This document shows positions 16,315 to 32,270 of a stretch of 32,726 nt of DNA, piece after piece. Position numbers and translations under genes: made by a program. This DNA comes from Dysgonamonadaceae bacterium (GTDB taxonomy: Bacteria > Bacteroidota > Bacteroidia > Bacteroidales > Azobacteroidaceae): assembly GCA_031270075.1 (NCBI GenBank), contig JAISYG010000031.1, forward strand, positions 1-32,726, in the 5' to 3' direction. How positions within the stretch are numbered: position 1 is the stretch's first letter; every line of letters begins with the position of its first letter. The notes beneath the pieces were generated by a model. That model saw only the letters and a list, made by a program, of their open reading frames with translations. It did not search any database and was not told the DNA's origin.

Positions 16315-17541
16315 TTACCGCTTTACGACCTTCAACGTCTTATCGCCGGCACAGACAAGGTATATACCCTTCGGAAGATTACCGACTGCGACAGATTCAC
16401 CAGCTTCGACGGTTTGCTGTAATACAATGCGACCACTGAGATCGGTTACCGTTACCTCTGTCGGAGCAGTGATGCCGTTGATGCGGAAACTTTCCGTGAC
16501 AGGATTCGGATAAACGTTTATACTGCTTCCTACTGCCGGTGATTCGATTGCCGAAGGAATATATGCCTTAATCTCTTTGAAATCCTTCCATATTGCTGCG
16601 GCTGTGTAATCTTCAATGGATTCGGAGGGAACGTAAAGCGTGACGTTACTCAAAAAAACATAGTAAAATACATAGCTGTTTATGCTTTGCGGCACCGGGT
16701 TAAGATTGGTAACGGAAGTCAGACTGATGCAATCGTTAAAAGCCCCATCTCCAATGCTTGTTACACTGTTTCCAATGGTAACGGAAGTCAGTCCGCGGCA
16801 CCAGGAAAAAGCAGATTCTCCAATACTTGTTACACTGTTGGGAATGGTAACGGAAGTCAGTCCGCTGCAATAGGAAAAAGCCCTATTTCCAATACTTGTT
16901 ACATTGTTTCCAATAGTAACGGAAGTCAGACTGATGCAATCGTTAAAAGCCCCATCTCCAATACTTATTACACTGTTTCCAATGGTAACGGAAGTCAGTC
17001 CGCTGCAAGAGGAAAAAGCCCCATAACCAATACTTGTTACACTGTTTCCAATGGTAACGGAAGTCAGTCCGCTGCAAGAGGAAAAAGCAGAATCTCCAAT
17101 ACTTGTTACACTGTTGGGAATAGTAACGGAAGTTAGTCCTCTACAATAGTGAAAAGCCCAATCTCCAATACTTATTACACTTTCCGGAATGGTAACGGAA
17201 GTTAATTTCTCGCAACCTATAAAAGCCCCATAACCAATACTTGTTACACTGTTTCCAATGGTAACGGAAGTCAGTCCGCTGCAATAGTAAAAAGCCCAAT
17301 CTCCAATACTTGTTACACCATCCCCAATTACGACCGTTGTAATTGAAGAATTGTAAAATAACCATGGAGCATAATCAAGAGTGGAATAATCCGGTATCGC
17401 CCCTGTACCGCTAAAAGTTAGCGTACCATCATCCGAAAGCGTCCACGTACAATCTCCGGTTGTGCCGGAGTCTATGATTTCCGCCAAACCCGTTGCGCTC
17501 AACAGGAAGAGCGCGGTCATTATTAAAATAAATTTTCGCAT
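16315..17541 (-). CDS. BspA-like leucine-rich-repeat surface protein with T9SS sorting domain
   Basis: 408 aa. The signal peptide is about 1-20 (LLSATGLA). A short domain (TTGDCTWTLSDDGTLTFSGTG, common before BspA-type repeats) is followed by nine 23-residue repeats (residues about 67-273, consensus LTSVTIGNSVTSIGDGAFSSCSG) of the BspA/LRR_5 type. A Ser/Ala linker leads to a C-terminal sorting domain of about 70 residues (SINVYPNPVTESFRI, then NLPKGIYLVCAGDKTLKVVKR), the T9SS type A signature. The protein should be exported by T9SS and either anchored to or released from the surface. BspA-type LRRs often bind host or cell-surface proteins (known for relatives; inferred here). It lies 18 nt after the DUF6261-like gene on the same strand, so probably the same transcript. 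Confidence 0.88.
   Translation of the reverse strand: MRKFILIMTALFLLSATGLAEIIDSGTTGDCTWTLSDDGTLTFSGTGAIPDYSTLDYAPWLFYNSSITTVVIGDGVTSIGDWAFYYCSGLTSVTIGNSVTSIGYGAFIGCEKLTSVTIPESVISIGDWAFHYCRGLTSVTIPNSVTSIGDSAFSSCSGLTSVTIGNSVTSIGYGAFSSCSGLTSVTIGNSVISIGDGAFNDCISLTSVTIGNNVTSIGNRAFSYCSGLTSVTIPNSVTSIGESAFSWCRGLTSVTIGNSVTSIGDGAFNDCISLTSVTNLNPVPQSINSYVFYYVFLSNVTLYVPSESIEDYTAAAIWKDFKEIKAYIPSAIESPAVGSSINVYPNPVTESFRINGITAPTEVTVTDLSGRIVLQQTVEAGESVAVGNLPKGIYLVCAGDKTLKVVKR
16723..17343 (-). repeat. Nine 69-bp tandem repeats encoding the LRR array
   Basis: The unit (for example ccaatggtaacggaagtcag on the plus strand) repeats every 69 bp, equal to 23 codons. Several copies differ at only a few positions, so slippage or recombination could change the copy number without shifting the frame. 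Confidence 0.85.
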
Positions 17542-20604: not shown

Positions 20605-20940
20605 TTATTCCGGCACATAAATAATTTCGCCGTTTTCCAGTTCGTATGCTACGCCCACGCGTTTCCCTTTTGCTTTTCCCGATGACTGTTCATCGGAAGG
20701 CGTGTAGCGGTTGATCTGGTTGCCTTCCTTCGTGATGATTTCCATATTGTCTTTTCCGGGATTTTTCACGATAGTAAAGTCTTCCTTGGTAAATACTTCC
20801 GTCAGATTCAGGTGCATCACCATCGCTACCATCAGGGCGACGGCAAATACCATCGCTACATCGAACAGATTGACGACTACGCTCAGCGGGTCGGTGTCTT
20901 CTTCCTTGAAGAATCTGCCGGAACGTCTGCTATTTCTCAT
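20605..20940 (-). CDS. hmuV: HmuV-like DUF2149 membrane protein
   Basis: 111 aa. A basic N-terminus ([20 protein letters not shown]) leads into one transmembrane helix (about 22-43, [20 protein letters not shown]), then a small soluble domain ending [16 protein letters not shown]. This is the DUF2149 pattern, like an ExbD/TolR arrangement, and the protein overlaps the ExbB-like gene by 11 bases. In Porphyromonas gingivalis the last gene of hmuYRSTUV is of this kind. It probably couples proton flow through the HmuU channel to haem uptake (inference). Confidence 0.8.
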
Positions 20941-21529
20941 GGTTGCTGTTTACTATCCGTGATACATATTCCAGACTGTAAATGTCTTTGGCATACCAGC
21001 GTTGCTTGAACTGCAAAGTGACTAATCCCACAGCACTGACAACCAGCCCGACAACGGTTGTCGCAAACACGACTTGCATATTGTAGGCCATGCCGGAAAT
21101 ATCGCCGGTCGACAGTCCGACCAAGGCCGGACTCATCGCTATCAGCGTGCCGATAAGTCCCAATACAGGTCCCATTTTGGCCAGCAACTTGGAGAGCGAT
21201 AGGTCTTTATCCGCTTCATTCTCCAGATTCGAGAGGAGATAATCCGAATAAGCTTCGCCGGACGGGGAAGTCAACAGGTCGCGCAGATATTTCACAAACA
21301 GGGAATTGTCTATTTCCGGTAACAGGGATTTTAATTCATCGACCGTTGCGGGCGACAATTCTTTGATTTTTTTGCCAAACAGTGCGTCGTTGCGACGTTT
21401 CACCATCATCTGGTTGTAAAAACTTCCGGTGAGCAGCAACGATCGTCCGAAAAGAATTAGGAGAAGAATAATATCGGGGATTAACAGGCTGTTTGCTACC
21501 CAGAATAGTGATTTAGAGATGATTTCCAT
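20930..21529 (-). CDS. hmuU: HmuU-like MotA/TolQ/ExbB proton channel protein
   Basis: 199 aa with three hydrophobic segments: about 10-32 (VANSLLIPDIILLLILFGRSL), about 120-140 (MGPVLGLIGTLIAM) and about 155-178 (MQVVFATTVVGLVVSAVGLV). The GPVLGLIGTLIAM segment and the Thr-rich third helix are typical of the MotA/TolQ/ExbB family. It overlaps hmuT by 17 bases and hmuV by 11, a tight translational unit. It probably forms the inner-membrane motor for the haem system, possibly independent of the housekeeping ExbB (inferred). Confidence 0.85.
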   Translation of the reverse strand: MEIISKSLFWVANSLLIPDIILLLILFGRSLLLTGSFYNQMMVKRRNDALFGKKIKELSPATVDELKSLLPEIDNSLFVKYLRDLLTSPSGEAYSDYLLSNLENEADKDLSLSKLLAKMGPVLGLIGTLIAMSPALVGLSTGDISGMAYNMQVVFATTVVGLVVSAVGLVTLQFKQRWYAKDIYSLEYVSRIVNSNHEK

Positions 21530-22220
21530 TTTTGCTCTTATTGTTTTTAAAAGTCCATTTATATTTGTTACCTAATATTCCCAGTATAAAAAACAGGATA
21601 AACAGTCCTGACGACAGCAGTATGGCGTTGATATTCACCGGTTCTTTTGCAGCAGAGTAAGTGGTGTTGCCGTTTACGGTCGTTATCAGTCCGGTGATGC
21701 AAACGAACAGATTGACCAGGAAGTAGACTTCCAAGCGCAATTCCCGTTCGGGACAGAGGTATTTAAGAAGAAAACTCAAAAGGGGCAATGCCAAAAAAAC
21801 CACAGCCGCAAGCAGGTACGAAAGCAAAGCAAAACCGGTTCCGGGCATCCCGAAAATCAACTGTGTTTGCAGGTAAAACAGGACGGGAAACACCAGCAAT
21901 CCCGGATACCGGTTGAGCAGCGGTTTCCACCCTCTTTCTTTTTTTACGCCGAACATTGCTTGAAGTTCCGCAAAGCAAAAGGCAAAACAAAGCGCCGCTT
22001 CGATGGTTATCAGTACGGCGGCGTCCTGCATTATTTTTGTATTGCCGAGAAAATCCGCGAGTTGCGTTTTGGACTGCAAAACAGCCCAGCGGCAGGTTCC
22101 GATAATAAAAACGGCGCACAGCAAACCGAAGAGAACGGTCTGCCACGGTTTCCAGAAACTGAGTTTCAACAGGGTGCTTATCAGGATAAAGAGGATTAGT
22201 ATTTGGAAGATATATTGCAT
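21513..22220 (-). CDS. hmuT: HmuT-like polytopic membrane protein
   Basis: 235 aa with about seven hydrophobic helices (for example FQILILFILISTLLKLSF, VLFGLLCAVFIIGTCRWAV and LLSYLLAAVVFLALPLLSFL). It has no recognised catalytic motif. Its place before the ExbB-like gene, after hmuS, matches hmuT of the P. gingivalis hmu operon. Family assignment rests on position and topology rather than a motif. The KilA-N gene separates it from hmuS by 864 nt. Confidence 0.65.
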   Translation of the reverse strand: MQYIFQILILFILISTLLKLSFWKPWQTVLFGLLCAVFIIGTCRWAVLQSKTQLADFLGNTKIMQDAAVLITIEAALCFAFCFAELQAMFGVKKERGWKPLLNRYPGLLVFPVLFYLQTQLIFGMPGTGFALLSYLLAAVVFLALPLLSFLLKYLCPERELRLEVYFLVNLFVCITGLITTVNGNTTYSAAKEPVNINAILLSSGLFILFFILGILGNKYKWTFKNNKSKNGNHL

Positions 22221-22238
22221 ATTCCGGAACAGTTCAAC

Positions 22239-23063
22239 TTATTTCAATGCTTTCAGATTTTTGTTTTCTACCAGCGATCGCATTTGCGTAATGGCTACCT
22301 TATTGAGTTGCACTAATCGCTCGCCTTGCGGAAGTCCCTGACGAATAAGCAAGGCGTTGATGCTTTCCATATTCGAGAGCACAACCAACTGTTCCAAAGT
22401 GGCATAATCGCGAACATTGCCTTTTGATTCCGGATTTGCGTCGCGCCATTGCTTTGCCGTCATTCCAAACAGAGCCACATTCAGCAAGTCGGCTTCTTCG
22501 GCATACGTGTAAGAAATTTGTTCTTTGGTAACGATATTTGGGATAATATGCTCTTTAATAGCATCGGTATGAATACGGTAATTGATTTTTGAGAGTGTGC
22601 GTTGGAGGTTCCATTCGAGGGATTTTGTACGTTGCTCGTCTTCTTTGAGGCGTTGAAACTCCTTGATAAGATAAAACTTAAATTCGGAACTTAACCACGA
22701 AGCAAATTCAAAAGCAATATCCCGGTGAGCGTAAGTTCCGCCGTAGCGTCCTGTTTTAGAAACAATACCGATGGCATTGGTCGTTTCAATCCATCTTTTG
22801 GGAGTTAAAGCAAAGCTATTGGAGCCTGCCATATTTTTAATTCCATCGAATTCGATGGAATTAAAATTAGGATTGTTAAACAATTCCCAAAGTCCGATAA
22901 ACTCAATGGTACTGCGGTTTCTCATCCAGTTTTGCAAGATGTAATCGCTTCTCTCGCTGTCCCTGTAACGCGCAATATCGGTTATGGAAATATAATCACC
23001 TTTCATTCCTTCGTAGAGAATTATTTCCGTTCCCTGCACGGTAATGGTTTCCTTTTTGTTCAT
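22239..23063 (-). CDS. KilA-N domain protein inserted in the hmu operon
   Basis: 274 aa, soluble. The KilA-N fold covers most of the first 145 residues (GDYISITDIARYRDSERSDY, then WMRNRSTIEFIGLWELFNNP and GRYGGTYAHRDIAFEFASWL), followed by a helical C-terminal part. KilA-N proteins are DNA-binding domains typical of phages and large DNA viruses, and solitary copies are common in Bacteroidetes chromosomes. It has its own possible -7 box and lies between hmuS (39 nt) and hmuT (18 nt). Its cellular target is unknown. I see no integrase, att site or inverted repeats beside it. Confidence 0.85.
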   Translation of the reverse strand: MNKKETITVQGTEIILYEGMKGDYISITDIARYRDSERSDYILQNWMRNRSTIEFIGLWELFNNPNFNSIEFDGIKNMAGSNSFALTPKRWIETTNAIGIVSKTGRYGGTYAHRDIAFEFASWLSSEFKFYLIKEFQRLKEDEQRTKSLEWNLQRTLSKINYRIHTDAIKEHIIPNIVTKEQISYTYAEEADLLNVALFGMTAKQWRDANPESKGNVRDYATLEQLVVLSNMESINALLIRQGLPQGERLVQLNKVAITQMRSLVENKNLKALK

Positions 23064-23093
23064 ATCTTTTTTTTACTTAGGTTCAATAATTGA

Positions 23094-23101
23094 CAAAGAT
23101 A
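23094..23101 (-). promoter_or_regulatory. Candidate -7 element for the KilA-N gene
   Basis: Minus-strand TATCTTTG is a full match to TAnnTTTG, 31 nt upstream of the KilA-N ATG. No TTTG is found at the usual upstream distance. Confidence 0.4.
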
Positions 23102-23102
23102 C

Positions 23103-26100
23103 TTATTTTCCCATTCCCTTTTCTTTTTCGTTATAGAACTTTTTTCGCTTTTGCCGTAACACAATAAACAACACAATAAACACAATCAGCACGGCAACGG
23201 CAACAAACAGTCCGTTAAGCACATTGTTTTCACCCGTTTCCTTTTGATTTCCTTCGTCCTTTTTCAGCACCATACCGTTTGGGGTATTATTATCAACAGC
23301 TGTTTGCATCTTCCGGATTTGTTGCCGGTATTCGTTTGCTTTTGCGGAACTGACTTTTGCTGCAATAAAATCCTGTAATTTCGCATTGTTTCCTGCAAAT
23401 CCCGAACCGCTCGAACCAAATTCTTTCACCAATTCCGTATGCAATGCCGCAATATCGGCCAACTGCTGTCCGGTGGCTTGCCACATTCCTTTGCGGACGG
23501 TTTCGAGCATCACGGCAGTAATCTCCTGCAATGCCTGCGGATTTTCGCGACGGAAGAACGCTTCCGTTCCCAGTTTGTACTCGTCTTTTACATACACGTC
23601 GTAGAGTTTGTCCCACATTTCGCTGTCGATGGCGTCCGGCTTCATTACATTCCACCCGTAAGTATTGGTAACGGCTTCCGTAATTTGCCCGGCGCTGGAA
23701 GCATTGCCTTGCATTACTTCCCGGATATATGCCGGATTGAAGAGGGTTGAGCGAGCTTCCACACCGATAGCTTCTTTCAGTTCCTGCATTCGCATATGGT
23801 TGCGGTTACGGTAATCGGCAAAATAGGCTTCGGGGTCTTTGCCCGTTACATTACGGACAGCCAGATTCAGTCCACCCATAAATTCATAAACGTGGTCGAG
23901 GCTCAATGCGCCCCATGTATTGCTCTGGCGGGGTTGAATCACAACGTCCGTATGATGCAGTGCGGCGCGAAGCAATCCGTCGTGATATTGTCCCCAGTTT
24001 TTGTCGCTGCCATACACTGCGCCCATATTGTGCATGTAAGTGTCGGCAATTTCTTTCTCCGATTCCCAGCGGTCGCCGCTTATAACCATCCCTTGAATGC
24101 CTGTGCCGTACATGCCGTTCATGCCGCCGAAAATACGCTGGAAAGACATTTCACGGGCATCTTTGGGCGAAACGCCCTGTTCGACCAACAGCCGTTCGGT
24201 TTCGACAACGCTTTCCGAAACACGGTTGTCGTAGGCATCGTCTTTGGCCGAAGCAGCCATTTCTACGGCGCGACTAAGCAAAGCAAGGCGGGAAGCGGCC
24301 AAATCGCGGAATTGTCCGGAGGTTTGGACGACTACGTCTATGCGCGGGCGATTCAGTTTTTCGGAAGGAATTAATTGCAGGTCGGCCACACGACCGAATG
24401 CATCGCGTACCGGCTCAACACCCAGCATATAGAGCGCTTGTGCAATCGTTGCACCTTCACTTTCGATAAATTCGCTGCTCCAGAACGTGTAACTCACTTT
24501 GCGGGGATAATCGCCGTGCTGTTTCCGGTACTGTTCCATTGTAGCGTTAACCAAGGCAACACCTTTGTCCCATGCCGTTTCGGAAGGCGTGGCTTCGGCA
24601 TTGATGGAATAGAGATTCCGTCCGGTGGGCACAGCCTTGGGATTGGCAACGGCGTCGCCTCCCGACGAAGGAGCAATGTATCCGCCGGCAAGCGCATTGA
24701 GCAGGGATTGAAATTCTTGTTCGGGACTTTCTTCCAGCGCTTTTTGGTAGGTCGTAATGTTGCGCAGGGTGCGTTCGATTTCCGCAATGGCGCGGGCGCG
24801 GTTCTTTTTCAAATCGGAAGATACGACAGCCGGCATTCCCCGGCGGGGAGGTGTGAGTATCGCTTTTACCTCTTCCAACTCTTTGGGCGTAATACGGGCA
24901 ATGGAGCATATCAATTCACTACTTATGGTTTTACCGTCGATGATTTGTTTGACCAACGTTTGTGCCGGTTCCAAATATTTTTGGGTGAAAAAGGTTTTAT
25001 TTTTCAGTTGCTTTTCGCTTATTGTTCCGTTTAACCTGTCTACGTTTGCCAGACTGTATGCAATAGGGTCGGCGCTCATGGCCAGTACGGTGGAGCGGAT
25101 TTTTTCCCGGCTGTAAGGCATGCCGGAAGTATATAAATGTCCCGTCATCTTTTCATTGGCGATTTCTTCGGCGAAGTTTTCGATGCGTTCGATGTCTTCG
25201 GAAGTATAGGCGTTTGTCCATACACTATCTAATTTCAGATCGCGGTGCAATCCCATTCGGACAGCGATTTTCTTCACTTCCAGCGAGGCCTTTGCTTGAG
25301 CCTGCCCTTCCGATTTATAGTACTGTTGTATCTTGTCTTGCAATGTTTTGAACTGCGAACGCATTTCGGTTTCCATAAAGGCCGGGGTGAGATAGGAAAT
25401 CGTGGTGGCGTACGAACGCCGTTTCGCCATCATGCTTTCGCCGATATTGCCGATGGTGTAATAGTAGAAATGCGGGACATTGCCGACCAGACGATCCGGC
25501 CAGTCGTAAGGGCTGAGTGCCACTTGCTTTTGCGGCGTAAATTCCAGACTTCCGTGCGTACCGAAATGCAGCAGTGCATCGGCTTTGAAAGCATATTGCG
25601 ACCAGAGGTAGGAGGCTATATAGGGGTGGGGCGGAGCGGATTTCGTTCCGTGAACAATGGCGAAAGCATCATTGCCCAAGCCGGCCATCGGTTGCGGAAG
25701 CAGCACGATATTACCTAATTGAATGCGCGCTACGGCCAGGTAGGATTTTTCGTCTTCCCGCACGGCCATGTATTGCCCGGGAGCTTCGCCGTAAGTATGT
25801 ACCACATCGGCATAAAGGTCTTGGGGTAATGCTTGCGCAATCCACGATTCGTATTCGTTTTTTTCCACGAGGGCGGGACGTTCCTTGTGCAGGAAATCAT
25901 CGAAAGCGCCTTCGGCATACGTACTGAATACAGCTCCTTGTGTCATCAACATTTTTTCAAAATCCTTGATGTTGGCGGGAAGATTAGCTACGTTGTATCC
26001 TTCGGCTTTCAGGCGTTGGAGGAAATGGTAGAGCGAAGGAACCGTTTCCAGTCCCTGTGCGGTCAGCGTAGATTGTCCGGCGCCTTTGAAATAATAGATG

Positions 26101-27197
26101 GCGAGTTTCTTCTCCGCATTGTTTTTCCGTTTCAATGCAGTGAAGTTGCTTACTATCTGCGTGAAATTCTTCAGGCGTTCGGGAATTGCCTTAAACAGGT
26201 ACAAGCCGTCTTTGTCTATTTCCTGCATATTCAGCGTGTAAGGATAAATGCTACCGTCGAGTTCGGGCATAACGATGCTTTGCGAGAAGAATCCGCCGAA
26301 CATACCCATCGGGTCTGCCTGCCATTCTTCCTGCGTTTGCAACAAGGAAAGCGGCGCAAACAGCGGGATATTGCGTTGTTTCAGCCAGTCGACAGTAGCA
26401 TCGGCCTGTCCCATAGCCAATCGTCCATGGGCAAAGTAAATGACCGCGTCGGGTTGTATCTCCCGGAGGAAATCCAGTCGTTTCATGAAGGAAGATACCG
26501 GATAGACATTCATTCCTGCGCGTTGCAGGGCGACTATCAGGCTGTCGATATTGTCGCGGTTGCCGCTGAAAGGGTCGTTCAGTCCACCGACAATGGCTAT
26601 TTTGGGCGCCTGTTCCGTATAGAAGCGGTTGCGTTTCAAATAATCATCATACGATGCTTTATCCTTGAATACAGCTTCTTCGTCTAAATGATACAGTACA
26701 TCGGTTTCGCTTTTCACTGCACTGTCGGGCGCATTGATGAAAAACGTTTTCCGGTCGATGTCCCGGCGAATATACCGCGCAAGGCTTTGATAGTTCTTTT
26801 TATTGCCGTTGCTGAGGTACTCTTCTACGGTTTTGCGCTGTACGCTGTCGAGGTTGCAGATATTGTTTTCGGGATTGGTTGCCCCGTAAATAAGGACAGG
26901 CGTGCCCCTGTCGGCCGTCCGCTGGATCTGCGCCCGCTGTTCGGCGGTGATATTCATACCCATACCGAATCCGAGGACAAAATCGGAAGACCGAAGCCCG
27001 CTTAATTTCTCAAAAGGTATTTCTTTAAACGTAACAAACCGGTCGGAGCCGGATTGCACTATGCTTGCCGTTTGAAAAGCTTGAAAATTGACTAATGCAA
27101 TTTTTGTGGGGGAAGCCAGCTTCCCCCACAAAATCCAAACACTACACAAAATCAGGGCAGTAACAACGATTATCGCCCCCTGTTTTTTCTTTGTCAT
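23103..27197 (-). CDS. hmuS: HmuS-like CobN/magnesium-chelatase family protein
   Basis: 1364 aa. An N-terminal signal anchor (about 8-27, AIIVVTALILCSVWILWGKL) precedes the long CobN domain, with landmarks such as HGRLAMGQADATVDWL, DALLHFGTHGSLEFTPQK, AFGRVADLQLIPS and RIFGGMNGMYGTGIQGM. A C-terminal transmembrane helix (about 1328-1352, GLFVAVAVLIVFIVLFIVLRQK) is followed by a basic tail. Most of the protein would lie in the periplasm between the two helices. CobN is a cobaltochelatase subunit; HmuS of haem operons is reported to act in the opposite sense on haem (removing metal). The hmuY/hmuR context favours HmuS over cobalamin synthesis, and no other cob genes are nearby. Its ATG overlaps the previous stop (ATGA). 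Confidence 0.88.
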   Translation of the reverse strand: MTKKKQGAIIVVTALILCSVWILWGKLASPTKIALVNFQAFQTASIVQSGSDRFVTFKEIPFEKLSGLRSSDFVLGFGMGMNITAEQRAQIQRTADRGTPVLIYGATNPENNICNLDSVQRKTVEEYLSNGNKKNYQSLARYIRRDIDRKTFFINAPDSAVKSETDVLYHLDEEAVFKDKASYDDYLKRNRFYTEQAPKIAIVGGLNDPFSGNRDNIDSLIVALQRAGMNVYPVSSFMKRLDFLREIQPDAVIYFAHGRLAMGQADATVDWLKQRNIPLFAPLSLLQTQEEWQADPMGMFGGFFSQSIVMPELDGSIYPYTLNMQEIDKDGLYLFKAIPERLKNFTQIVSNFTALKRKNNAEKKLAIYYFKGAGQSTLTAQGLETVPSLYHFLQRLKAEGYNVANLPANIKDFEKMLMTQGAVFSTYAEGAFDDFLHKERPALVEKNEYESWIAQALPQDLYADVVHTYGEAPGQYMAVREDEKSYLAVARIQLGNIVLLPQPMAGLGNDAFAIVHGTKSAPPHPYIASYLWSQYAFKADALLHFGTHGSLEFTPQKQVALSPYDWPDRLVGNVPHFYYYTIGNIGESMMAKRRSYATTISYLTPAFMETEMRSQFKTLQDKIQQYYKSEGQAQAKASLEVKKIAVRMGLHRDLKLDSVWTNAYTSEDIERIENFAEEIANEKMTGHLYTSGMPYSREKIRSTVLAMSADPIAYSLANVDRLNGTISEKQLKNKTFFTQKYLEPAQTLVKQIIDGKTISSELICSIARITPKELEEVKAILTPPRRGMPAVVSSDLKKNRARAIAEIERTLRNITTYQKALEESPEQEFQSLLNALAGGYIAPSSGGDAVANPKAVPTGRNLYSINAEATPSETAWDKGVALVNATMEQYRKQHGDYPRKVSYTFWSSEFIESEGATIAQALYMLGVEPVRDAFGRVADLQLIPSEKLNRPRIDVVVQTSGQFRDLAASRLALLSRAVEMAASAKDDAYDNRVSESVVETERLLVEQGVSPKDAREMSFQRIFGGMNGMYGTGIQGMVISGDRWESEKEIADTYMHNMGAVYGSDKNWGQYHDGLLRAALHHTDVVIQPRQSNTWGALSLDHVYEFMGGLNLAVRNVTGKDPEAYFADYRNRNHMRMQELKEAIGVEARSTLFNPAYIREVMQGNASSAGQITEAVTNTYGWNVMKPDAIDSEMWDKLYDVYVKDEYKLGTEAFFRRENPQALQEITAVMLETVRKGMWQATGQQLADIAALHTELVKEFGSSGSGFAGNNAKLQDFIAAKVSSAKANEYRQQIRKMQTAVDNNTPNGMVLKKDEGNQKETGENNVLNGLFVAVAVLIVFIVLFIVLRQKRKKFYNEKEKGMGK

Positions 27198-28183
27198 CTT
27201 ACGATTATTTTTTGCGTCCGGCTTTCTTTATCGGAATGAATTTGGACAATGTAAATGCCTTTTTCCCAACCGGAAACAGGTATAGCCCTGTTGCCCGATG
27301 GTGCTTTCACTCGTTTTACCGGTAATCCGGCGAGGTTATAGATCGCCACTTCCGCACTTTCGGGTAGATAAATATCCAGGGTTTGCGATGCGGAATTAAC
27401 ATATACTGTCGACGGACAAGTATCTGTAACAGGAATACCGTTGGTTCCGGCCAAAGGAATAAATTGATAATCGAATTTCAAGAATCCGGGCTTACCTTCC
27501 GCATTGATAAATTGTTTCAAATACATTTTGACATATTTTCCCGATGTGGTTTTCAGTAAGATAATCATCGGATTATCGGTAGCTCCTCCCGACATTGCCA
27601 AGGTAGAAAAGTCGGCGGATGCCCCTGTTGCGCCATTGGCGGCTTTACGGGTAACGGTATTGACGGAAAGGGAAGTAGCGCGTAAAGGCGGCATTCCTTT
27701 CGTCAAATCAAGGTAGAATATACCGGTTACAACGGCATCGGCATTGTAAGTGATTGCCGGCGCTTCCGTTAATGCGCCGTATACGGCATCCAATGGGGTT
27801 TCTGCTGCGGAAACAGCATCGGCAATAAAAATTGCGCCTGCATTTCCGTTGCCGGCTAAGCCGCTATTCGTCCGAAAATCGTAGGCATGGAAAGCGAAAT
27901 CCCAATCGGTGCGCGCCTGCCATTCGGTGTTGATTTTTTCCGTGCCTGCATTACCGACTACATTCTCCAGTTCAAAAGGGCTTGTCCCCCGGAATAGCAC
28001 GCCTTGTGTTTCGTCGAAAGCGAAATAGTGCCATTTGCCGAAATCGGGTAATTCCATCGGAACACCCATTATATTTACCGTACCGGCATACAAATCGTTG
28101 TATGTGTATTCGTCGGCTTTAACATTCATGCTCATTATGGAGCACAGGATCAACATTACAGAGGTAATTTTCTTGAAATTCAT
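27194..28183 (-). CDS. HmuY-like haem-binding protein with T9SS sorting domain
   Basis: 329 aa. The signal peptide is about 1-23 (ending NVKA) with no lipobox. A HmuY-like domain (about 30-245) shares the motif RTDWD-x-AFH-x2-D-x2-TNSG (here residues 91-108) with the neighbouring HmuY lipoprotein, and also G-x-Y-x-K-x-YLK-x-F near its end. The last 70 residues (VYVNSASQTLDIYLPESAEV, then GWEKGIYIVQIHSDKESRTQKIIVR) form a T9SS type A sorting domain. HmuY family members are otherwise lipoproteins, so this copy probably reaches the surface or medium by T9SS. It lies 27 nt after hmuY and overlaps hmuS by four bases. Haem ligands are not assigned; His99 is a candidate. Confidence 0.8.
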   Translation of the reverse strand: MNFKKITSVMLILCSIMSMNVKADEYTYNDLYAGTVNIMGVPMELPDFGKWHYFAFDETQGVLFRGTSPFELENVVGNAGTEKINTEWQARTDWDFAFHAYDFRTNSGLAGNGNAGAIFIADAVSAAETPLDAVYGALTEAPAITYNADAVVTGIFYLDLTKGMPPLRATSLSVNTVTRKAANGATGASADFSTLAMSGGATDNPMIILLKTTSGKYVKMYLKQFINAEGKPGFLKFDYQFIPLAGTNGIPVTDTCPSTVYVNSASQTLDIYLPESAEVAIYNLAGLPVKRVKAPSGNRAIPVSGWEKGIYIVQIHSDKESRTQKIIVR

Positions 28184-28210
28184 AATAAAATCGTTTGAAA
28201 TTGTTTATAA

Positions 28211-28894
28211 TTAATCTTCTTCTTGTTTTACATCCAAATGAGTTGTTTTATCGGGTTGATAAACATATTGCATCGTTACTGTTCCCGAAGCCCCGGCATC
28301 GCTTTTGAAGTTTTTCAAATAGATTTTAGCGTATTTGCTGTCGGCGGTGCGAACAACGAATACTTTTTGGGCATACACCCATTTGCTGTTCATCATATCT
28401 TCCAAAACCGCCCATTTTTTTGTCGGTTGGGCAAGGCCGGTATGAATATAACCGATTTTTCCCTGCATCATCTGGCTCATATCGTAGATGATGGAATCGG
28501 GTTCATCAACCGCATAACCGGTGCCGGGAGCAACCGTTACAAGGTCGAAATGAAAGTCCTTCCCGTTGAAATCATATGCGAGTATTCCACCTTTGCCGGT
28601 TCCCGATTCGCCGCTGTTCGTTTTTACATCCTGACGATGAAAAGCTAAGTCCCAGTCGGTGCGTTTGCGCCATGTTTCATTGTCCGTTTCATTGCCGGCA
28701 TCGCAAGTTCCAATGATTTCCCCTTTGGCAAAAGAGAAGAAATTCCATTGTGTATAGCTGCTGCAATCCAATATAACCAGGCCTTCTTTCGGTTCACTTT
28801 TTTGAAACAAGTCGTCTTTGTTATCACAGGAAAAGAAACCAACCCCGCTCAGCAGGATAAGCACGAACAATTGAAAAGTTTTTTGAATGTTCAT
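28211..28894 (-). CDS. hmuY: HmuY-like haem-binding surface lipoprotein
   Basis: 227 aa (HmuY is about 216). The lipobox is GFFSC (Cys23), followed by acidic residues (DNKDD) of the sort that direct surface export in Bacteroidetes. The HmuY core has YTQWNFFSFAKGEIIG (about 47-62), RTDWDLAFHRQDVKTNSG (79-95), and YAKIYLKNFKSDAGASGTVTM-x-Y near the C-terminus. HmuY takes haem from host haem proteins and hands it to HmuR (known). Ligands differ in the family (His-His, His-Met, Met-Met); His86 and the MMQ/MM methionines near residues 145-170 are candidates, not proven. It lies 19 nt downstream of hmuR. Confidence 0.85.
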   Translation of the reverse strand: MNIQKTFQLFVLILLSGVGFFSCDNKDDLFQKSEPKEGLVILDCSSYTQWNFFSFAKGEIIGTCDAGNETDNETWRKRTDWDLAFHRQDVKTNSGESGTGKGGILAYDFNGKDFHFDLVTVAPGTGYAVDEPDSIIYDMSQMMQGKIGYIHTGLAQPTKKWAVLEDMMNSKWVYAQKVFVVRTADSKYAKIYLKNFKSDAGASGTVTMQYVYQPDKTTHLDVKQEED

Positions 28895-28913
28895 ATTTGT
28901 TTTTATATTAAAA

Positions 28914-30845
28914 TTAAAATCGTATGCTTAAACTGGTGAAAAAAGTTCTGCCGGGATTATAGGATGCGAAATCCTTATTGATGTAATCCAACAGATTGTT
29001 GATACCGAACTGAAAATGACCTTTCAAATCCTTGTAAATAGGGAAATGCTGGGTATAGATACAATTGGCAATGTAATAATTGCCTGTGGCTACTTCCGTT
29101 ACCTGTCCGTTGTTTTCCGAATAAACCGTTCGGGGCGACATCACCCGGCCCGACAACAGCAGGCTGTACGACCATTGGGTAGAAGATGGCAGGAAAGGTA
29201 AATGCTTTTGAAGAAACTGCAAATGCATCGTTGCCGTGTGTTTGCTGTTGCCCGATAATTGCCGGTAAGTCTTTTTGTCGATGGCATTGGTAAAGGCATA
29301 TCCACTCCGCAAGCGGAAATATTTCAGAAATGTATATTGCAGGGATACCTCCATGCCTGAAATCTGCGCTTCTTCCACGTTTTCGTATCGCATTTCCGTG
29401 CGGCCTTCGGTTTCATTGGTAATTGCCAGCGTATTGATTTTGTTTTGAATGGCGTTATCATAAACCGTAACCGAAGCGTTGATGTCCTTCACGATATATT
29501 CTGCCGAAACGGCTTTATACCATGATTTTTCGGGAGATAACCCGGGATTGCCGATGACCCAGAAAGGCAGGTTTTCCCCGATATAATGTGGAAATTCCAT
29601 ATACATTTCTTTCAATGTAGGCGTTTTGTAGCCGTTGCTGATATTTCCCCGGAAACGAAAATGTTCAAGGCGATACATCAACGAAAGATTGGGCGCCAGA
29701 TATCCCCCGAATTGGGAATGGTGGGTATATCGCGCTCCCAACAAAGCTTCCCACCCTTGGGTAATCTTACATTCTCCTTGGACAAACCCGTTGTAATTGG
29801 ATGCGTATTTCCGTTCTTGCGAGTCAAACTGATTGTAACTGAATACATTTTCTAAGTTCAGTTCTACCCCGCCGACCAGTTGAATAGAGGGCCTTGCATT
29901 CCATGCATCCATTAATTTAAAAGAATTGTATTGCGCTCCGTTTGCGTAAAGCCTGGGGTCGTTGGTTAATTTATAGGTCAGATGGCCTTGATAATTGTCG
30001 CTGTGTCCGCTCAATGTCAATGTATTTTGGGGCGAAAAAACATAATTCCATTTGCTTCCGATGGTGTAATTCTCGTCGGTGCGTGTCTGATATTTTTGTA
30101 AAAGCCAGTTTTCCTGGTTGTAATAATTGCCTTTCAGTTCGGCGCTGAATTTTTTTGCTTGATATTTGAAGGTCTGCGAGAGGCTGTAGTCTTCGTAAGG
30201 ATCTGCCGTGTAGGAAGTCCCTTTGACTTCGTAGGTTTGCATATCTTTCCGCGAAAAAGAAGTTTTGGAAGAAAACGATTGCATCTTGAATCCTACATTA
30301 GCGTCATACACACTCAGGTAATTGGACCATCGGGCGCGGGCGTCGCCTTGAAAAGCTTTATCCACATTGTTTGTAATGATATTGATAACGGAACCGATGG
30401 CGTTCGACCCATACAGCACAGCCGATGCGCCGTTGACAATTTCCACTTGCCGGATATCGGCGGTATTGAGGCGCGAGAGATTGACTTTTTCGGTACGTTC
30501 GCCCACCAAACGTTCGCCGTCGATAAGTATCAAAATGTATTTATTGTCCAGTCCTTGTATTTGAATATTGTCGCCCATGGCCTGATTGGGGTCAAAACTA
30601 ACTCCCGGTATGAAATTTTCCAAGGCTTCGACCAGCGTTAACGCTCCCGATTCACGAATATCGTTGCCTGAAATGACTTTGGTGAGCACCGGCGTATTTT
30701 TCAGCGAGCGTGGCGTAAAAGTTCCGGTAACGACCACTTCCGACAAAATCCGGGAGGTATCCGTTTCGGAAACAGCATGTTGCGCTCGAAGCGAAACATT
30801 CCACAAGAGTAAAGCAAAGACCCATCCAACGCTATGTTTAACCAT
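28914..30845 (-). CDS. hmuR: HmuR-like TonB-dependent outer membrane haem receptor
   Basis: The track starts at 31016, but the extra 57 codons cover the promoter. MVKHSVGWVFALLLWNVSLRAQ at 30845 is the signal peptide (643 aa). A plug follows (LSEVVVTGTFTPRSLKNTPV, then ILIDGERLVGE and VEIVNGASAVLYGSNAIGSVINIIT) and then the barrel, ending in Phe (FTSLSIRF). The family's haem-receptor box YRAP...NPDL appears here as YKTPTLKEMY...GNPGLSPEKS, with a histidine (EFPHY) between, where HmuR has its conserved haem-ligating His. It imports haem delivered by HmuY with TonB energy. It is first in the operon, 127 nt downstream of the LuxR-type gene. Confidence 0.88.
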   Translation of the reverse strand: MVKHSVGWVFALLLWNVSLRAQHAVSETDTSRILSEVVVTGTFTPRSLKNTPVLTKVISGNDIRESGALTLVEALENFIPGVSFDPNQAMGDNIQIQGLDNKYILILIDGERLVGERTEKVNLSRLNTADIRQVEIVNGASAVLYGSNAIGSVINIITNNVDKAFQGDARARWSNYLSVYDANVGFKMQSFSSKTSFSRKDMQTYEVKGTSYTADPYEDYSLSQTFKYQAKKFSAELKGNYYNQENWLLQKYQTRTDENYTIGSKWNYVFSPQNTLTLSGHSDNYQGHLTYKLTNDPRLYANGAQYNSFKLMDAWNARPSIQLVGGVELNLENVFSYNQFDSQERKYASNYNGFVQGECKITQGWEALLGARYTHHSQFGGYLAPNLSLMYRLEHFRFRGNISNGYKTPTLKEMYMEFPHYIGENLPFWVIGNPGLSPEKSWYKAVSAEYIVKDINASVTVYDNAIQNKINTLAITNETEGRTEMRYENVEEAQISGMEVSLQYTFLKYFRLRSGYAFTNAIDKKTYRQLSGNSKHTATMHLQFLQKHLPFLPSSTQWSYSLLLSGRVMSPRTVYSENNGQVTEVATGNYYIANCIYTQHFPIYKDLKGHFQFGINNLLDYINKDFASYNPGRTFFTSLSIRF

Positions 30846-30871
30846 TATTTTACTATTAAAAAAGGACAATG

Positions 30872-30972: not shown

Positions 30973-31581
30973 CTAAAGCAAATCGTCCTGCGATACGAGA
31001 TTGTTGAAAACGGCATAAACGGTTAAGCCGGAAACCGTCTTGATGCCGGTTTTTTTGGTAATGTTCTTGCGGTGCGAGATAACCGTGTGAATGGAAATGC
31101 AATGTTTGTTGGCGATTTCTTTATTCGTCAACCCTTTCGCTACCGATACAAGGATTTCTTTTTCCCTGTCGGATAAATCAATATTGTCGACGGCATTTCC
31201 ATTGTGTTGAACAAATGTTTGGGCTATCCGTTGCAATTTTTTCCGCATTTTGGAACTATCATCATAAATATTCAGCACGCCGGCGAAATCGTCAAGCGTT
31301 CCGCTATGAACATATCCGTAATGGATAGCCACAATGATAGCATCGAGGTAATCGGAAAACAAATCCCTCACGGAAAACGGCCGGTGAAAGTTGATAATAG
31401 CGGGATTGAGCAGGATAATATCAAACGGTTTATCTTCCGTTTTGTTTTGGAACGCCTGAAAATCGCAATACATACCGCTTACCGCAAATTCGGTATTTTC
31501 TTCGAGTATTTTCTTCATGCCCTGCCGGATAACGGGCGATGGCTCGATAATAATTATCCGGTTCTTATTGGAACAGTTCAT
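30973..31581 (-). CDS. LuxR-family regulator with degenerate receiver domain
   Basis: The ATG at 31581 (MNCSNKNRIIIIEPSPVIRQ) gives 202 aa; the track uses a TTG one codon upstream. An N-terminal receiver-like domain (about 6-125) lacks the expected residues: Glu-Pro where the acidic pair stands, and Asn59 in FDIILLNPAII at the phosphoacceptor Asp position. A C-terminal LuxR HTH (about 137-195, LSDREKEILVSVAKGLTNKE, then CISIHTVISHRKNI) should bind DNA. So it is likely controlled by something other than phosphorylation. Its ATG overlaps the stop of the hemerythrin gene (TGATG). It is placed to regulate the hemerythrin gene or the adjacent hmu promoter (inference). Confidence 0.82.
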   Translation of the reverse strand: MNCSNKNRIIIIEPSPVIRQGMKKILEENTEFAVSGMYCDFQAFQNKTEDKPFDIILLNPAIINFHRPFSVRDLFSDYLDAIIVAIHYGYVHSGTLDDFAGVLNIYDDSSKMRKKLQRIAQTFVQHNGNAVDNIDLSDREKEILVSVAKGLTNKEIANKHCISIHTVISHRKNITKKTGIKTVSGLTVYAVFNNLVSQDDLL

Positions 31582-32270
31582 CAAAGAGTCTTTTCAATTT
31601 GTTCGACCAAAGCAATTAATATTTGGTCTTCCAGTAAAGTATGCTTGCTTAAATCCGATTCAAATAAAAACAAATCAATCAAAACATTCCGGCATTTTTC
31701 AATGGCGCATTCCGGTGGAAGGTACTTGATGATGATATTTTTCAAATCACTCAACGCCGCATTGAGATTGCTGTGATTCCGTTCGTATTCTTTGATTTTG
31801 TATTGCCCGGTTTTTCCTCCTTCAAGCAATTTCTTGATATATGGAAATACGATTTGTTCTTCATAATCAAAATGGGTAATCAGTTCCTGACGGTATTTTC
31901 CGCAAAATTCCATTAACATTTTGCCGTGTTTCACTTGACTGGTATCGGTCAGATTCAGCACTTGCGCGATTACTTTGGGCATTCGGTTATTGAGATAATC
32001 CTGGTGCGCATTGCGTAAATACTGCATTAAGTCGTTCAGCGGAAGTTGCATCAAAATAGATGCATCGGGGAAATAGTTTTCAAATGTGTATAAGTTACAA
32101 ACCAGCAGGAACAGAGAAACCGAAATACCGTTTTTTTCGCACACTTGTTTTACCGTACTTTCTCCTAAACCAAGACTCAAACCAAAACACGGGAAAACAT
32201 ACAGCAGCCGGTAATTGGTAAGCACCAAGTCCGCTACTTTCATTTTTTCGGAGAATACACCGTGATTCAT
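31581..32270 (-). CDS. Hemerythrin-domain protein (RIC/YtfE-like di-iron family)
   Basis: 229 aa, no signal peptide. An N-terminal region (about 1-80, VFPCFGLSLGLGESTVKQVC) resembles the DUF542-like/ScdA-type start, followed by a four-helix hemerythrin domain. Candidate iron ligands are His in RNAHQDYL (about 89), His and Glu in LITHFDYEEQIVFPYI (about 132-140), His in YERNHSNLNAAL (about 163) and His in LSKHTLLEDQ (about 210). RIC-type proteins repair iron-sulfur clusters damaged by oxygen or NO, while other hemerythrins bind oxygen (known). It is translationally coupled to the LuxR-type regulator and next to the hmu operon, which suggests a link to redox or iron state (inference). Confidence 0.82.
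   Translation of the reverse strand: MNHGVFSEKMKVADLVLTNYRLLYVFPCFGLSLGLGESTVKQVCEKNGISVSLFLLVCNLYTFENYFPDASILMQLPLNDLMQYLRNAHQDYLNNRMPKVIAQVLNLTDTSQVKHGKMLMEFCGKYRQELITHFDYEEQIVFPYIKKLLEGGKTGQYKIKEYERNHSNLNAALSDLKNIIIKYLPPECAIEKCRNVLIDLFLFESDLSKHTLLEDQILIALVEQIEKTL

Follow-up and report, generated by a model that had tools for sequence, protein, structure and literature searches.

Two HmuY proteins with different predicted anchors, one lipid and one T9SS, in a single hmu operon of a bacterium related to Candidatus Symbiothrix

The window analysed here is a 32,726-nucleotide stretch of contig JAISYG010000031.1 (assembly GCA_031270075.1) from a Dysgonamonadaceae bacterium, a gut bacterium related to Candidatus Symbiothrix. 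On its minus strand, positions 20605-30848 are occupied by a co-directional hmu operon encoding a TonB receptor, a HmuY lipoprotein, a second HmuY that ends in a type IX secretion system (T9SS) sorting domain and is termed HmuY-T9SS, a CobN-like protein, a KilA-N domain protein, HmuT, HmuU and HmuV (Table 1). A gene for an ABC ATPase comes after the HmuV gene. The genes are separated by short gaps only, and at the junction between the HmuY-T9SS gene and cobN the stop of the former overlaps the start of the latter. The hmuYRSTUV gene set (TonB receptor, HmuY, CobN-like protein, HmuT, ExbB-like protein and DUF2149 protein) is complete and runs in one direction, with the KilA-N gene interposed. 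The receptor also matches the NCBIfam haem/haemoglobin receptor family TIGR01785 (E value of 5e-36), at a score below the family cut-off, while the HmuT-like protein returned no matches in Pfam or NCBIfam.

Table 1. Features of the hmu operon in the window, with the evidence behind each assignment
Feature	Position	Strand	Evidence
TonB-dependent outer-membrane receptor, HmuR-like	28914..30848	-	Pfam Plug 9.4e-22, TonB_dep_Rec_b-barrel 4.4e-35; reading frame open upstream to 31016
HmuY lipoprotein, 227 residues	28211..28894	-	Pfam HmuY 3.5e-27
HmuY with Sec signal peptide and T9SS type A sorting domain, 329 residues	27194..28183	-	Pfam HmuY 8.9e-18, Por_Secre_tail 2.4e-08, TIGR04183 6.3e-11
T9SS type A sorting domain, residues 260-329 of HmuY-T9SS	27197..27406	-	TIGR04183 (2.1e-11 in genome search)
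CobN/Mg-chelatase-like protein, HmuS position	23103..27197	-	Pfam CobN-Mg_chel 1017.8 bits
KilA-N domain protein between cobN and hmuT	22239..23063	-	Pfam KilA-N 6.4e-20
HmuT-like membrane protein	21513..22220	-	Orthologues in L064 and L066 at the equivalent position, E about 1e-83
HmuU-like MotA/TolQ/ExbB channel protein	20930..21529	-	Pfam MotA_ExbB 2.5e-10
HmuV-like DUF2149 protein	20605..20940	-	Pfam DUF2149 1e-34

An earlier note, made from the sequence alone, had described two tandem HmuY-like proteins with a shared motif, one a lipoprotein and the other combining an ordinary signal peptide with a T9SS tail, and this description was borne out. Both open reading frames are present on the minus strand where the note had placed them. 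The motif takes the form RTDWDFAFHAYDFRTNSG in HmuY-T9SS and RTDWDLAFHRQDVKTNSG in the lipoprotein, and the two proteins align with 26% identity over 204 columns (E value of 1e-15). The profile searches that the note had proposed as a check were read against curated cut-offs of 27 bits for Pfam HmuY (PF14064), 27 for the Pfam sorting domain PF18962 and 23 for NCBIfam TIGR04183. The HmuY model was matched at 95.9 bits by the lipoprotein and at 65.3 bits by HmuY-T9SS, and the sorting tail of the latter scored 34.6 bits with PF18962 and 42.1 bits with TIGR04183, the match extending to the final residue. Read by eye, the N-terminus of HmuY-T9SS comprises KK, a hydrophobic stretch and VKA/DE, an ordinary Sec signal peptide that its orthologues share. 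No usable lipobox was found by eye in this N-terminus, and the protein carries a sorting domain instead of the lipid anchor that is typical of characterised HmuY members, yet lies outside the Pfam family definition. The lipoprotein displays the lipobox GFFSC/DNKDD, read directly from its sequence. Its DNKDD resembles the K-(D/E)2 signal for lipoprotein export in Capnocytophaga, but stands one position later than the optimum reported there (PMC5080379), so that surface exposure of the lipoprotein is predicted only as likely.

Structure prediction, the second check proposed, agreed with these domain assignments, both HmuY domains matching HmuY structures and the tail matching T9SS C-terminal domains. 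AlphaFold modelled the lipoprotein with confidence (predicted local distance difference test, pLDDT, of 87.8), and the model's significant Foldseek matches in the PDB are all HmuY-family proteins, including 6ewm (E value of 1.5e-15, TMt of 0.80) and 8b6a (TMt of 0.88-0.89). Confidence is lower in the model of the T9SS form (pLDDT of 69). Its matches include 8b6a (1.1e-6) and 3h8t (6.1e-6), and nine HmuY-family chains among the top 11 matches head the list, with TMt values of only 0.38-0.57 for this model. Of these structures, 3h8t and 6ewm are the HmuY of Porphyromonas gingivalis. The tail matches chain 8glk_D, a T9SS-bound NucA substrate (TMt of 0.80), and the C-terminal domain of mirolase (PDB code 8qb1; TMt of 0.70).

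Both HmuY genes are under purifying selection, with nonsynonymous change far below synonymous change. For the T9SS form, comparison of close pairs gave a ratio of nonsynonymous to synonymous rates (dN/dS) of about 0.10 in the HmuY domain and of 0.30-0.46 in the tail. HmuY-T9SS is therefore not a chance open reading frame, and a spurious tail is likewise ruled out by the curated cut-offs, the purifying selection and the orthology of the tails described below.

The distribution of this arrangement was surveyed by profile searches of whole genomes. A protein-pattern scan of genome contigs, which detects close relatives only, recovered one true relative, a T9SS HmuY 65% identical to that of the window, in the Candidatus Symbiothrix metagenome-assembled genome JAISWY010000027.1; a search of plasmid records gave zero matches. 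Within the genus, the order receptor, lipoprotein HmuY, T9SS HmuY is kept in four genomes besides that of the window (G007, G008, G014 and G029), and on the longer contigs of G007 and G008 it is followed by CobN, HmuT, HmuU and HmuV. HmuY is nonetheless patchy in the genus, being absent from most of the 36 relatives scanned, several of them near-complete. Outside the genus, an analogous module was found in seven genomes, where the T9SS protein and the lipoprotein that accompany the receptor each have a double HmuY. In G041, G043 (two copies), G049 and G050, which belong to other families of the same order, a double-HmuY T9SS protein, a TonB receptor and a double-HmuY lipoprotein are encoded co-directionally, while G155, G270 and G386, which belong to the same class, have the T9SS protein in divergent orientation to the pair of receptor and lipoprotein. 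Curated models confirmed the HmuY and T9SS domains in G041, both copies of G043, G049 and G155; the HmuY match in G050 lies just at the curated cut-off, and the domains in G270 and G386 were assigned with profiles built in this analysis. The lipoprotein partner at G043 C21 has a lipobox, recognised by eye, after an upstream in-frame start. In G218, G222 and G389 a T9SS HmuY was present without a lipoprotein HmuY in the stretch examined. The out-of-genus loci come from genomes with long HmuY frames and are not a random sample; among the loci examined, pairing is common but not universal. The genome survey suggested in the note thus showed that HmuY with a sorting tail recurs, and the recurrent linkage of paired HmuYs to one receptor argues for a joint function.

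The loci also vary in other respects. The operon of G007 is split: its HmuY-T9SS gene and cobN are separated by about 4.2 kb of opposite-strand genes (L064:6862-11077), among them genes for a methyltransferase-like protein and for two RhuM-like proteins recognised by eye. Tandem double HmuY domains are frequent in Bacteroidota HmuYs, in lipoproteins and T9SS proteins alike (L076, L077, L078, L079, L080, L114-L119). At G018 (L070:7373-10144), a single 924-residue frame joins a TonB-receptor-like part and a HmuY part that are encoded by separate genes in G022 (L071), and represents either a true fusion or a lost stop codon.

The genome that holds the window is a draft of the metagenome-assembled type (2.43 Mb in 157 contigs, 84.7% complete), in which the two proteins described here are the only HmuYs. 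It encodes SprA (2634 bits), PorU (1105 bits), PorV (406 bits) and PorZ (625 bits) and contains 52 sorting-domain matches; a working T9SS is therefore expected in the host, and the tail of HmuY-T9SS has a machine to use it. Ferrochelatase was not found in this incomplete draft, a result that, with incompleteness as a caveat, fits a dependence of the host on outside haem.

Taking the domains, the operon, its conservation, the purifying selection and the T9SS machinery together, we consider it probable that this is a haem-uptake operon in which two haem-binding-type HmuYs, held by two different anchors, serve one receptor. To these observations we add by inference haem binding by the T9SS form, its surface attachment and a relay. 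The lipoprotein would sit on the outer membrane, probably facing out, and dock on the TonB receptor by analogy with the HmuYR pair of P. gingivalis. HmuY-T9SS would cross the inner membrane by Sec and the outer membrane through the SprA channel, would, after processing by PorU, most likely be fixed to surface lipopolysaccharide, and may there capture haem or porphyrin at a greater distance from the membrane. The captured haem would be passed to the lipid-anchored HmuY or directly to the receptor, and the receptor would import it with the help of the CobN-like protein and of the HmuU-type protein, which would supply the energy.

Type A tails usually lead to PorU-mediated attachment at the surface, PorU being the sortase and PorZ delivering the anionic lipopolysaccharide for attachment. 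The type A tail of HmuY-T9SS and the presence of PorU and PorZ in the genome thus predict that the protein stays on the cell, contrary to the suggestion in the note that it might be released to scavenge haem at a distance. That PorU cuts the T9SS HmuY and sets it free as a diffusible haemophore, with the lipoprotein staying behind as receiver, is possible but unlikely: some T9SS cargo is released, and the HmuY of Flavobacterium columnare is described as T9SS-secreted with a predicted outer-membrane/extracellular location (PMC9618737), but zero sequence features of the window's protein point to release.

The reading of two haem-binding proteins on two anchors also has to be weighed against several points that speak against it, most of which concern the T9SS form. 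By sequence and fold its closest solved relative is BfrB/HmuY-Bf-2, which is reported to be without iron-coordinating residues (PMC12106395). At the Arg88/Tyr89 pair, which contributes to porphyrin binding in BfrB/HmuY-Bf-2, the alignment shows that the T9SS form keeps the Tyr and has Ala in place of Arg, and that the lipoprotein keeps the Arg and has Gln in place of Tyr. The would-be axial-ligand region of the T9SS form, residues 154-202, is modelled at a pLDDT below 50. The relay of haem between the two proteins is purely conjectural, and a F. columnare hmuY mutant is described as growing like the wild type in the media tested (PMC9618737). Haem binding by the T9SS form is accordingly uncertain, because the nearest solved relative is without iron ligands, one porphyrin-contact residue is changed and the ligand loop is of low confidence. 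Some HmuYs are reported to bind without iron ligands (PMC12106395). The positions of P. gingivalis His134 and His166 can be located by alignment with solved structures, and the lipoprotein is Met-rich at the corresponding places; in the T9SS form, the alignment of the loop with these structures is too poor for haem ligands to be named. Met residues occur at plausible axial-ligand places in both HmuYs, in the T9SS form within this poorly aligned, low-confidence loop, and they are seen repeatedly in this region across the T9SS group, MPP and the AM/SM/GM positions being examples.

These residues bear on a further explanation, in which the T9SS form has lost haem binding and does something else at the surface. 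It might, for instance, hold haem-protein donors such as haem proteins that have been partly digested, bind another porphyrin or a cobalamin-type tetrapyrrole, or serve the receptor as a structural partner. The change from Arg to Ala at the porphyrin contact is found throughout the T9SS group, and together with the enlarged, low-confidence loop at the expected ligand place and the closest similarity to a HmuY subtype without iron ligands it would suit a loss of haem binding. We nevertheless regard this as quite unlikely, since the Met residues recur in the loop and the HmuY domain, at a dN/dS of about 0.1, is strongly conserved beside a haem-type operon.

A tree built from single HmuY domains separates a clade of T9SS-type proteins (100/100) from one of operon lipoproteins. 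A sister relationship between the two groups of the genus is modestly supported (81/84), on long branches, and makes an old duplication in this lineage plausible; the tree further indicates that the paralogues diverged before the genus radiated and are thus not a recent tandem copy. Three untailed lipobox proteins (G012, G030 and G032) nest inside the T9SS-type clade with the window's protein, and a topology forcing the five tailed proteins together into a tailed-only clade was rejected (approximately unbiased test, p of 0.010). The tails match each other with scores of 151-281, compared with at most 107 for any other tail in the window's genome, which argues that they are mutually orthologous and that one old capture was followed by a later loss with gain of a lipobox, although two captures from one source, or recombination, may be alternatives. 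The anchor therefore seems to have switched at least once from a T9SS tail to lipid. The scenario of duplication and then tail capture put forward in the note holds in part: the sister groups and the orthologous tails fit one old capture, but the divergence predates the genus and the reverse change of anchor seems to have occurred. A recent tandem duplication in a single strain, with a chance tail on a drifting copy that has no lasting role, is very improbable and is refuted, despite the adjacency of same-family genes with a shared motif, by the 26% identity, the tree, the paralogue order kept in five genomes of the genus, the orthology of the tails and the purifying selection on domain and tail.

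Elements of a two-anchor hmu operon are known from other systems. The hmuYRSTUV operon of P. gingivalis likewise encodes a HmuY lipoprotein, a TonB receptor, a CobN-like HmuS, HmuT, an ExbB-like HmuU and a DUF2149 HmuV, and its gene content (PMC10434189) equals that of the window operon minus the KilA-N gene and the second HmuY. The two differ, as the note had maintained, in that P. gingivalis has one HmuY and no T9SS HmuY, and also in that hmuY precedes hmuR there, whereas the receptor gene comes first in the window. In P. endodontalis (POREN0001_0445; PMC11208336) and P. intermedia (PMC10434189) a gene for a T9SS type A sorting-domain protein adjoins hmuY, as in the window; it is co-transcribed with the hmu operon in the former (PMC11208336) and strongly iron-regulated in the latter (PMC10434189). 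The POREN0001_0445-type protein differs by its description, being beta-barrel-like and not called HmuY-like by the authors (PMC11208336). The HmuY of F. columnare (C6N29_01035), reported as T9SS-secreted, combines PF14064 with TIGR04183/PF18962 like HmuY-T9SS, which reduces the novelty that the note had implied for a HmuY with a T9SS tail; unlike the window's protein it is presented as a single HmuY, without a lipoprotein partner or hmuSTUV genes reported in the accessible part of the paper (PMC9618737). Species with double or triple HmuYs (P. intermedia, B. fragilis and some Porphyromonas) resemble the window's genome in having more than one homologue, but a T9SS-tailed HmuY is not reported among them in the available portion of the source (PMC12106395). 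While a HmuY-T9SS fusion and multiple HmuYs per genome are thus already known, the pairing of the two anchors in one hmu operon appears undescribed: no description of a lipoprotein HmuY and a T9SS HmuY paired around one receptor, or in one hmu operon, was found in an open literature collection that covers few subscription journals, which is weak evidence of absence.

The KilA-N gene is missing at the equivalent place in the relatives L064 and L066, in which 4 bases separate the end of CobN from the start of HmuT. As it is single-copy in the window's genome, it looks like a one-off insertion that left the operon open, and its product probably does not belong to the haem system. Genes for a LuxR-type regulator and a hemerythrin-domain protein adjoin upstream of the haem locus (30973-32270, minus strand), perhaps as a linked sensor and regulator, and a similar pair is found in G049, of another family (L079:5666-7022, minus strand; E values of 3.5e-23 and 2e-44). 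A leucine-rich-repeat-like protein encoded at 16315-17541 (minus strand) also carries a terminal T9SS sorting domain (TIGR04183 E value of 2.8e-11).

Lipoproteins from oral and gut pathogens have been the focus of work on HmuY, and one fish pathogen is known to have a T9SS-exported HmuY. Of greater interest than the locus by itself are its recurrence across lineages and the switch of anchor. Paired anchors at the same TonB receptor in several lineages suggest layered haem capture at the Bacteroidota surface. As a general two-tier system, in which a T9SS-displayed outer HmuY would hand haem to a lipid-anchored inner HmuY at the same TonB receptor, with anchors switchable in evolution, this can be put forward only tentatively. 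The paired loci provide a concrete set on which layered haem capture may be tested, and the lipoproteins nested in the T9SS clade would be an example from nature of how a secreted protein can change its route of export.

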